Positions 16,967-20,021 of a DNA stretch of 32,047 nucleotides are shown piece after piece. Position 1 is the stretch's first letter. The number at the start of each line of letters is the position of its first letter. The notes under the pieces are model-generated. The model had not been told where the DNA came from. It ran no database searches and worked only from the letters and a program-made list of their open reading frames with translations. This DNA comes from Candidatus Eiseniibacteriota bacterium (lineage in GTDB: Bacteria; Joyebacterota; Joyebacteria; Joyebacterales; Joyebacteraceae): assembly GCA_030613615.1 (NCBI GenBank), contig JAUWLR010000018.1:1-32047 (forward strand), written 5' to 3'. Made by a program: the position numbers and the translations under genes.

Positions 16967-17170
16967 TCAGGCGGCCTTCTTCTTGTACTGGTCGATCGCT
17001 CCGGAGCGGATGCACCGTGTGCAGACCAGGATCTTCTTCGGAGTGCCGTTCACGACGACCTTGACCCGCTGGAGATTGGGCAGCCACCTGCGCTTTGTCA
17101 CGTTGTGGGCGTGACTGACGTTGTTGCCCACCTGCGGGTGTTTTCCGCAGATTTCACACTTCCTGGACAT
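16967..17170 (-). CDS. rpmB: 50S ribosomal protein L28
   Basis: A 67-residue basic ribosomal protein of the large subunit. It starts [20 protein letters not shown], the L28 signature, and continues with [14 protein letters not shown] and [11 protein letters not shown] before a Lys-rich end (KKKAA). Two Cys pairs (CEIC and CTRC) are kept, so this is the zinc-binding form. ATG 17170 has GGAGG five bases upstream; a longer frame to 17299 is not conserved. It stands alone, with its own probable promoter upstream and an 11-bp hairpin downstream. Confidence 0.96.
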
Positions 17171-17202
17171 GTTTTCCTCCGCGATTTCTAGGACAGAACC
17201 TA

Positions 17203-17231
17203 AATCTAGCACGCGGGGCAACCGGGAGCAA
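17203..17231 (-). promoter_or_regulatory. Probable rpmB promoter
   Basis: Read on the minus strand: TTGCTC (17226-17231), a 17-base spacer and TAGATT (17203-17208), 33 bases before the rpmB start. The -35 is weak, but position and spacing fit. Confidence 0.45.
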
Positions 17232-17291
17232 GCCCTTTCGGAGCCTTCAGATGTCCCCGGAAATCCCCGGGAGGGGCTCCGGGCCATCGGC

Positions 17292-17320
17292 TTGACCACC
17301 TACCCGCGCTGGTCTAGAAT
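17292..17320 (+). promoter_or_regulatory. Promoter of the recG operon
   Basis: TTGACC (17292-17297), a 17-base spacer and TAGAAT (17315-17320). Transcription should begin near 17327, which places the ATA codon at 17377 about 50 bases into the message and excludes starts upstream of 17327. Confidence 0.7.
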
Positions 17321-17376
17321 CCGACAGGGCCCGCAGACGGGTCCCGACCAGCCGCATTTCGAACACGGAGGCCGCG

Positions 17377-19467
17377 ATAGCTGCCGAGACGACTCTCCAC
17401 TCAGAGGTACGCAATCTCAAGGGCGTGGGCCCTAGGTCGGCCGAGCTCTTCGCCAAGGCCGACGTCGAGACCATGGAGGACCTCCTCTACTACGTTCCAA
17501 GGGCTTACACCGACTGGTCCAACATCTCGACCGTCGGGTCGCTCAGGACGGGCGACAGGGTCACGGTTATCGTGCGGGTCGTCTCGTGTGACATCCTGCG
17601 GCGCGGTCGGAAGGAGATCTTCGTCGCGGCTCTGGAGGACGACACCGGCGCGGTCTTCGCGCGGTGGTTCGGCCAGGGCTATCTCAAGAACGTGCTCACG
17701 GCGGGCAGCAGGGCCGTCGTCAGCGGCGAAGTGAGGTTCGACAGGTTCGCCCGGAGGATCGAGTTCCTCAACCCCGCGTTCGAACTGATGAGCGACGACG
17801 CGGCGGCAGAGCTTGTGCACGCCGGGCGTATCGTGCCCGAGTACTCGCAGATAGGAACGCTGTCCGGAAGGCGCATCCGCGGGCTCGTCAAGAGGGCCCT
17901 CGACAGGTTCCTCGACCAGCTCGTCGACCCCCTGCCCGAGAGCGTGCTGAGAAAGCGGCGTCTCCCGGGTCTCGTGAAGTCGGTCGCCGACGTGCACTTC
18001 CCTCCGTCGCTCGAGCGCGCGGCGCGGGCCCGGTCGCGGCTGGCGTACGAGGAGTTCTTTCTGTTCCAGGTTCTGGTCGCCCTCAAGAAACGGCAGCTGG
18101 CGGAGAGCGGTCGCGCGATCCGGATCGCGTGGCGCGACGACGAGCACGCGAGATTCACCGGGTCACTGTCCTTCGAGCTCACCGGCGCGCAGAGACGCGT
18201 CATCGGTGAGATCGGCGGTGACCTCGGGCGCGGCGAACCTATGAACAGGTTGCTTCAGGGCGATGTCGGCTCGGGCAAGACCGCCGTGGCGGCGGCGGCC
18301 ATGCATCAGGCCGTCGCCTCCGGGCACCAGGCGGCGATCATGGCGCCCACGGAGATCCTCGTGGAGCAGCACTTCGAGAATCTGAGGGCGCTCCTCGCGC
18401 CGCTGGGTGACCGCGTCGTGCTCCTGCGTGGCGGGATGAGAGCGGGGGAACGCGGCGAGGCGCTCGGGCTCATCGGAAGCGGGGAGGCACAGATCGTCGT
18501 GGGCACGCACGCCCTCATTCAAGAGACGACGAACTTCTCAGACCTGGCCTTAGCGGTCGTCGACGAGCAGCACAGATTCGGCGTGGTCCAGCGTGCCGCC
18601 CTTCGCGAAAAGGGGAGCGCGCCGCACATCCTCGTCATGACCGCGACGCCGATCCCAAGGACGCTGGCGCTCACCGTCTACGGCGATCTCGACGTGTCGG
18701 TTCTGGACGAGATGCCGCCCGGCAGAGAGAAGGTCGTGACCGCCGTAAGGGATGAGGCCGCGAGAAGTAAGGTCTACGACTTCCTGAGGAGCGAGGTAGT
18801 GTCCGGCAGGCAGGTCTTCATCGTGTACCCGCTCGTCGAGGAGTCGCAGAAGATGGAGCTTGCGGCCGCGACGAAGATGTATGAGGAACTCAAGGAGCAG
18901 ACGTTCGCGGACGCCACGGTCGGGCTCGTCCACGGGCGCATGAAGCCGGAGGAGAAGGACGCCGTAATGGAGGGCTTCAAGGCGGGGAACACGGATATTC
19001 TCGTATCGACGACGGTCGTCGAGGTGGGCGTTGACGTTCCGAACGCCACCGTGATGGTCATCGAACACGCGGAGCGGTTCGGGCTCGCGCAGCTCCACCA
19101 GCTAAGGGGCCGGGTGGGCAGGGGAGCCCATCAATCCTACTGTATCCTGATGGTGGGACGCGGCGCGTCCGACGAGGCGCGCGAGCGCATTCAGGTGCTG
19201 GCGGACACGAACGACGGATTTGTCATTGCCGAGAAGGACCTGAGGATGCGAGGTCCCGGCGAGTTCCTCGGCGTGAGGCAGCATGGTCTGCCGAGGTTCT
19301 CGGTCGCGGACTTAAGGTCTGACTCGCGCCTGCTCGTGCAGGCGAGGGACGACGCCTTCGCGTTCGTGACGGGCGATTCGGACATGAGCACGCGGGCAGG
19401 CAGGCTCTTGCTCGACGCGACGAAGAGACGATTCAGGGGACGCGGGGCGTTTATGGACGTGGCATAG
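17377..19467 (+). CDS. recG: ATP-dependent DNA helicase RecG
   Basis: A monomeric superfamily-2 helicase that remodels stalled replication forks and Holliday junctions. Seen: wedge-domain start NLKGVGPRSAELF, an OB-fold (about 50-130), Walker A GDVGSGKT (about 295-302), DEQHRFG box, motif III MTATPIPRTLAL, then VGLVHGRMKPEEKD, STTVVEVGVDVPNA and QLRGRVGRG of the second helicase lobe. The start is unusual: no ATG, GTG or TTG occurs in frame between the stop at 17293 and GTG 17425, which would cut into the conserved NLKGVGP segment. ATA at 17377 has GGAGG five bases upstream and would give a 696-residue protein. GTG 17425 (680 residues) is the conservative alternative. Confidence 0.96.
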   Translation: MAAETTLHSEVRNLKGVGPRSAELFAKADVETMEDLLYYVPRAYTDWSNISTVGSLRTGDRVTVIVRVVSCDILRRGRKEIFVAALEDDTGAVFARWFGQGYLKNVLTAGSRAVVSGEVRFDRFARRIEFLNPAFELMSDDAAAELVHAGRIVPEYSQIGTLSGRRIRGLVKRALDRFLDQLVDPLPESVLRKRRLPGLVKSVADVHFPPSLERAARARSRLAYEEFFLFQVLVALKKRQLAESGRAIRIAWRDDEHARFTGSLSFELTGAQRRVIGEIGGDLGRGEPMNRLLQGDVGSGKTAVAAAAMHQAVASGHQAAIMAPTEILVEQHFENLRALLAPLGDRVVLLRGGMRAGERGEALGLIGSGEAQIVVGTHALIQETTNFSDLALAVVDEQHRFGVVQRAALREKGSAPHILVMTATPIPRTLALTVYGDLDVSVLDEMPPGREKVVTAVRDEAARSKVYDFLRSEVVSGRQVFIVYPLVEESQKMELAAATKMYEELKEQTFADATVGLVHGRMKPEEKDAVMEGFKAGNTDILVSTTVVEVGVDVPNATVMVIEHAERFGLAQLHQLRGRVGRGAHQSYCILMVGRGASDEARERIQVLADTNDGFVIAEKDLRMRGPGEFLGVRQHGLPRFSVADLRSDSRLLVQARDDAFAFVTGDSDMSTRAGRLLLDATKRRFRGRGAFMDVA

Positions 19468-19475
19468 GAGGTCGG

Positions 19476-20021
19476 ATGACCAGGGAAGAGGCGATCGCTG
19501 TCATCAATGAGAACTGCGGGAACAAGAATCTGGTGAAGCACATGCTTGCCACCGAGGCCGTGATGGTCGGTCTTGCGGGGAAGCTCAGTGAGGACGCAGA
19601 GTCGTGGGCGCTGGCGGGGCTTCTTCACGACCTGGACTACGAAGAGACCGTCGATGATCCCGACCGGCACGGTCTCGTTTCGGCTGAGAAGCTGGGCGAG
19701 CTGGGCATCTCCGAGGAGATAATCCACGCGGTCAAAGCCCACAACGAGCACGTGACGCGCGATAGCACCATGGACAGGGCGCTTTACGCCAGCGACCCGG
19801 TGACGGGACTCATCGTTGCGGCGGCGCTCATGCATCCCGACAAGAAGCTGGCCGGGCTCGATGTCGACTTCGTTATGCGCAGATTCAAGGAGAAACGTTT
19901 CGCCGCAGGCGCGAGCAGGGAGCAGATCGCGGCGTGCTCCGAGTTGGGTCTCTCTCTCGAGGAGTTCATCGGAGTGGCGCTCGCGTCGATGCAGGGTATC
20001 AGCGGGGAGTTGGGACTCTAG
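19476..20021 (+). CDS. HD-superfamily metal-dependent hydrolase
   Basis: A 181-residue soluble protein of the HD/HDIG phosphohydrolase superfamily. Metal-ligand motifs: KHMLATE near residue 23, LLHDLDYE near 50, a further His in EEIIHAVKAHNEH near 88-96, and Asp in YASDPVTGLI near 105. It is co-transcribed with recG, eight bases after its stop, with GGAGG upstream of ATG. Members of this predicted-hydrolase group often act on nucleotides, but the substrate cannot be read here. Its stop codon shares the palindrome CTAG with the stop of the convergent M23 gene. Confidence 0.88.
   Translation: MTREEAIAVINENCGNKNLVKHMLATEAVMVGLAGKLSEDAESWALAGLLHDLDYEETVDDPDRHGLVSAEKLGELGISEEIIHAVKAHNEHVTRDSTMDRALYASDPVTGLIVAAALMHPDKKLAGLDVDFVMRRFKEKRFAAGASREQIAACSELGLSLEEFIGVALASMQGISGELGL

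Follow-up and report, generated by a model that had tools for sequence, protein, structure and literature searches.

Conserved near-cognate start codons of recG and a small set of other genes in one candidate bacterial phylum

INTRODUCTION

The recG gene in the window, by which we mean the whole 32,047-nucleotide stretch of DNA analyzed here, raises the question of which codon starts its translation and why. Its reading frame runs from a TGA stop (17293 to 17295) to GTG 17425 without a single ATG, GTG, TTG, or CTG, and that GTG (17425 to 17427, forward strand), the first canonical codon in the frame, encodes the V of the conserved KGVGP motif. A preliminary description of this DNA had proposed an ATA start at 17377, with an ATG misread as ATA as the main alternative. 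Starts other than AUG, GUG, and UUG have, to our knowledge, been thought of as isolated curiosities (infC, pcnB, sigR, and ccpN). Here, we asked whether the same codon is found in related genomes, whether other genes share the trait, and what it might mean for RecG synthesis.

RESULTS

The protein encoded at this locus is RecG: it scored 903 bits against the NCBIfam equivalog PRK10917 (cut-off, 718) and 736 bits against TIGR00643 (cut-off, 659), and it carries the Pfam domains RecG_wedge (from residue 11), DEAD, Helicase_C, and RecG_dom3_C. The coding sequence occupies positions 17377 to 19467 of the forward strand (696 amino acids, stop included) and begins at ATA (17377 to 17379), five nucleotides downstream from the Shine-Dalgarno sequence GGAGG (17367 to 17371). 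A promoter scan recovered the hexamers TTGACC (-35; 17292 to 17297) and TAGAAT (-10; 17315 to 17320), separated by a 17-nucleotide spacer and matching the consensus at 10 of 12 positions, with 0.0 such sites expected in shuffled sequence; this near-consensus promoter, about 50 nucleotides upstream from the ATA, was the sole site in the 300 bases scanned. The preliminary description had named the open interval, the promoter, and the ribosome-binding site, and each was confirmed, the coordinates base by base; the N terminus that it gave begins correctly with MAAETTLHSEV but drops an R, the reading from ATA 17377 being (M)AAETTLHSEVRNLKGVGP.

The predicted 5' leader of the mRNA, about 50 nucleotides long (17327 to 17376), contains no ATG, GTG, or TTG in the recG frame; a second near-cognate codon, ATT 17356, lies in frame upstream from the ATA and lacks a Shine-Dalgarno sequence. 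The fold of the leader was unremarkable (z-score, -0.66), and an Rfam search of it returned no family above threshold and one meaningless sub-threshold match, so a structured leader or known riboregulator was dropped as a candidate. The gene is divergent from rpmB (start at 17170, minus strand). Its 3' neighbor, which starts with ATG at 19476, encodes a small HD-domain protein (19476 to 20021), and a gene for such a protein also follows recG in genome G008 (C4 52845 to 53412). Apart from recG, all closed genes that were called in the window start with ATG or GTG. The gene finder had returned ftsQ as startless, a result that was dropped since GTG 1355 is present; this codon, behind a weak Shine-Dalgarno sequence, is probably the ftsQ start.

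RecG was found in all members of a phylum sample of 20 genomes (one family, 8 genera), and the codon aligned with ATA 17377 was near-cognate in every one: ATC in nine, ATA in seven, ACG in four, and AUG, GUG, or UUG in none. An exact GGAGG precedes this codon in 19 of the 20 loci, the exception being AAGGAGA in L017, and the spacing is 5 to 8 nucleotides throughout. Ten loci have no in-frame ATG, GTG, or TTG between the upstream stop, or a point 30 codons upstream, and codon +11; in one of the 20 (L012) the upstream in-frame stop is just five codons away. Two loci are ambiguous: in L004 (G001) an ATG in the recG frame, four codons before the near-cognate codon, shares bases with the Shine-Dalgarno sequence, and L017 (G009) has an ATG two codons upstream that directly abuts AAGGAG. 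The in-frame ATG seen in L016 and in L019 falls on bases of the -10 box and is therefore absent from the recG mRNA. Peptide conservation begins right after the near-cognate codon (AAETTL.SEVRYLKGVGP). The window's genome is a metagenome-assembled genome (MAG) of 2.87 Mb in 288 contigs, which, together with the rarity of the codon, is all that speaks for the error that the preliminary description had raised. That reading is ruled out because ATG is likewise missing at this codon in the 19 other genomes, which come from several projects; public contigs of relatives labeled Candidatus Eisenbacteria or plain "bacterium" (L032 to L036) agree.

A start farther downstream was also considered, at GTG 17425 or at the V codon of SEVR, which is GTG in L006, L012, L014, and L017. 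However, initiation at GTG 17425 would remove part of the conserved LKGVGP, these valines are encoded by gta, gtc, or gtt in most relatives and lack a Shine-Dalgarno sequence, and both the GGAGG 5 to 8 nucleotides from AUH or ACG and the intervening residues are conserved. We regard a downstream start as highly improbable.

Nineteen phylum loci extend far enough upstream to be searched for the promoter, and it was recovered in 18 of them, as TTGACC (TTGACG in one) and TAGAAT (TAAGAT in one) with a spacer of 17 or 18 nucleotides. Between the last base of the -10 box and the start codon lie 33 to 128 nucleotides, depending on the species. Because the promoter is kept while the leader varies in length, the leader is not coding. 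This bears on the possibility that ribosomes initiate in another frame or in an upstream open reading frame and enter recG by frameshifting or coupling, as might be imagined from an unrelated 104-codon open reading frame (17121 to 17435, different frame) that overlaps the recG start. That frame, however, begins 5' of the promoter and is antisense to rpmB, and the leader, variable as it is, has no ATG, GTG, or TTG in the recG frame; such a route is hardly credible. On this comparative evidence, ATA 17377 is the recG start, as first proposed, and the presence of a near-cognate codon there is not due to chance: the locus has no usable canonical start, and codon and Shine-Dalgarno sequence are conserved in its relatives.

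In other phyla, 85 of 86 judgeable RecG loci have a canonical codon upstream from the motif. The lone exception, L047, comes from an Acidobacteria MAG in which the frame is apparently disturbed; L024 and L032 to L036, which were among the loci with no canonical codon or merely a distant one, are members of the phylum studied here. In a tree of the 20 RecG proteins, built with the N terminus excluded and with several deep branches weakly supported, parsimony required at least five switches among ATA, ATC, and ACG and none to ATG, GTG, or TTG.

We then asked which other genes start in this way. A codon-usage gene finder was applied to 400 kb each of G008 and G009 and then to 1.5 Mb of G008 (about half of that genome; 1,204 closed genes), with two high-GC genomes from other phyla (212 and 111 genes) as controls. 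A boundary-based tier yielded 86 "startless" genes that were mostly boundary errors, the prfB frameshift among them, so only genes with no canonical start and a near-cognate codon placed by a Shine-Dalgarno sequence were used, followed by a check of orthologues. The prfB main open reading frame without a start lies on the minus strand of G008 C22 near 167158, the expected outcome of the known RF2 programmed frameshift. None of the 212 and 111 control genes passed the screen; in the phylum, hflX, a gene for a GltS-like symporter, a methyltransferase gene, and recG did, and such starts were found in about 4 to 6 of the 1,204 G008 genes. Exact GGAGG preceded four of five near-cognate genes in G008 versus 34% of canonical genes, a difference too weak to lean on (binomial P of about 0.05).

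Orthologue comparison separated conserved cases from sporadic ones. All 19 hflX loci (L190 to L208) start with ATC (17) or ATA (2) behind GGAGG at 5 to 6 nucleotides, 11 of them with no alternative start; all 16 loci of the GltS-like symporter (L209 to L224) start with ATC (15) or ATA (1), 9 with no alternative. In both G008 and G009 the gltS-like gene and recG share a contig, about 30 kb apart. The long type of rmlA has ATC in 18 of 18 loci (L302 to L319), where it occupies the place of the family's Met, the TIGR01208 profile beginning one residue later. This gene is the least certain of the four because, in most copies, a GTG stands in frame three codons ahead of the ATC; in five loci the GTG is out of frame or absent. 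Together, recG, hflX, the gltS-like gene, and rmlA account for 73 starts, none of them canonical, and the four have no obvious common function. From these alignments, at least two genes besides recG, and probably three, appear to keep near-cognate starts in nearly every species.

The SAM methyltransferase (L299 to L301) was dropped as a phylum-wide case: it was found in three genomes, with AUC in G008 (C4:12912) and G017 and GTG in G015. In addition, tadA in G008 (C1:198068; L267:18068) has an apparent ACG start after a Shine-Dalgarno sequence, and CTG is the only well-placed start of lysA, hpt, and an M16 peptidase gene on G008 C18, of cmk on C1, and of an NTPase gene in G009 (L152).

The initiation machinery of the phylum looks ordinary. 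A search pattern for initiator tRNA that left the anticodon open matched only the CAT form with GGG/CCC (14 matches in 13 of the 20 genomes), and an altered initiator tRNA or changed code was dropped accordingly; the seven genomes with no match probably have variant letters or gaps. IF3 is present in 18 of the 20 genomes; inspection by eye showed nothing unusual in the IF3 sequence of the genome that contains the window. In all 18 infC loci (L112 to L129) the start is GTG or TTG directly after the Shine-Dalgarno sequence, never ATG. An ATA or ATC usually follows two codons later; this codon is ACA in genus g3 and lies about 10 nucleotides from the Shine-Dalgarno sequence, and a near-cognate infC start, with the classic IF3 loop, was dropped.

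DISCUSSION

Our results make it probable that recG has an AUA start by design, as a throttle on initiation, and that a small, gene-specific set of other genes shares this arrangement. AUA 17377 would serve for ordinary fMet initiation of RecG, directed by the GGAGG Shine-Dalgarno sequence, so that a start codon one base off AUG stands behind a promoter and a ribosome-binding site of good quality; the codon-anticodon check, policed by IF3, would then set and cap RecG output. IF3 destabilizes 30S complexes on near-cognate codons. The preliminary description's suggestion that the start lowers RecG synthesis through discrimination by an initiation factor is reasonable, and we infer the same from the conserved signals. 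Its suggestion that the start may be autoregulatory does not fit recG, because RecG is no initiation factor, and the infC genes of this phylum use GTG or TTG.

A single transition suffices to turn AUA into AUG, and likewise ACG, and selection against AUG at the recG start is likely from the pattern of switches; it is not proven, because the switches are few (five). In closely related genome triplets, 4.0% of ancestral GUG starts and 1.7% of UUG starts reverted to AUG, and a change from AUG to AUU occurred once in 61,358 cases (PMC5622118). These rates also bear on a different explanation, that start selection in initiation is relaxed in general throughout the phylum and AUH and ACG starts drift neutrally with no regulatory meaning. 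The methyltransferase that differs among lineages, the few CTG starts, and the possible ACG start of tadA in G008 would all be consistent with relaxed start selection. Against it, only about 4 to 6 of 1,204 G008 genes are affected, and the same genes keep the trait in nearly every species; neutral drift would scatter such starts, and AUG was never regained in the same four genes, whereas GUG and UUG do revert in the triplets. We consider relaxed start selection unlikely and favor the throttle, with near-cognate starts probably kept to hold protein output down or to make it adjustable.

Since recG, hflX, the gltS-like gene, and probably rmlA are of the same design, their products should shift together when initiation fidelity changes, that is, with the level or activity of IF3 or with free 30S subunits. 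Near-cognate codons have switched among themselves and AUG has never come back, which makes start-codon stringency a candidate means of coordinated control. We speculate, with considerable doubt, that an initiation-fidelity regulon of recG, hflX, the GltS-like transporter gene, rmlA, and perhaps a dozen genes per genome is raised together by changed IF3 activity or a changed pool of free subunits. HflX is a ribosome-splitting factor, and in such a regulon it could close a loop between the state of the ribosome and start-codon stringency.

Across one candidate phylum, several housekeeping genes thus keep AUC, AUA, or ACG and have not gone back to AUG. Such genes are ready-made reporters for testing start-codon stringency, and their proteins will be truncated or missed by gene callers limited to ATG, GTG, and TTG. 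Other phyla can be screened cheaply by the same comparison: one orthologue, a Shine-Dalgarno sequence with a near-cognate codon, and no alternative start. Our search of the open-access literature turned up no previous description of near-cognate starts for either recG or hflX.

The closest known systems share parts of this arrangement. In Escherichia coli, infC (AUU) is throttled by its near-cognate start. Like recG, infC (AUU, AUC, or AUA, autoregulated by IF3) combines a near-cognate AUH start with a Shine-Dalgarno sequence and is conserved across species; unlike infC, recG encodes neither IF3 nor any other initiation factor, so there is no autoregulatory loop. Streptomyces sigR starts with GTC and is repressed by IF3 (PMC5472188); it resembles recG as a gene that encodes no initiation factor and whose rare start codon is said to limit the product, and it differs in the codon and the gene, and in that IF3 control was shown for sigR whereas we infer it for recG. 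The AUA start of ccpN and the AUU start of cvfC1 in Staphylococcus aureus give roughly 10% of the output of AUG, that of ccpN depending on the growth medium; the ccpN AUA is kept between S. aureus and Bacillus subtilis, and citZ also has AUA (PMC13009471). These genes share with the set described here the same codons and a strong Shine-Dalgarno sequence, but they are other genes in another phylum, whereas here four genes carry the trait phylum-wide and ACG is used as well. Finally, the AUU start of E. coli pcnB limits its translation, according to the accounts of Binns and Masters (2002) given in PMC1780047 and PMC13009471; pcnB is a single gene limited at translation by a near-cognate start, as recG would be, whereas the phylum studied here retains such starts in a set of orthologues.
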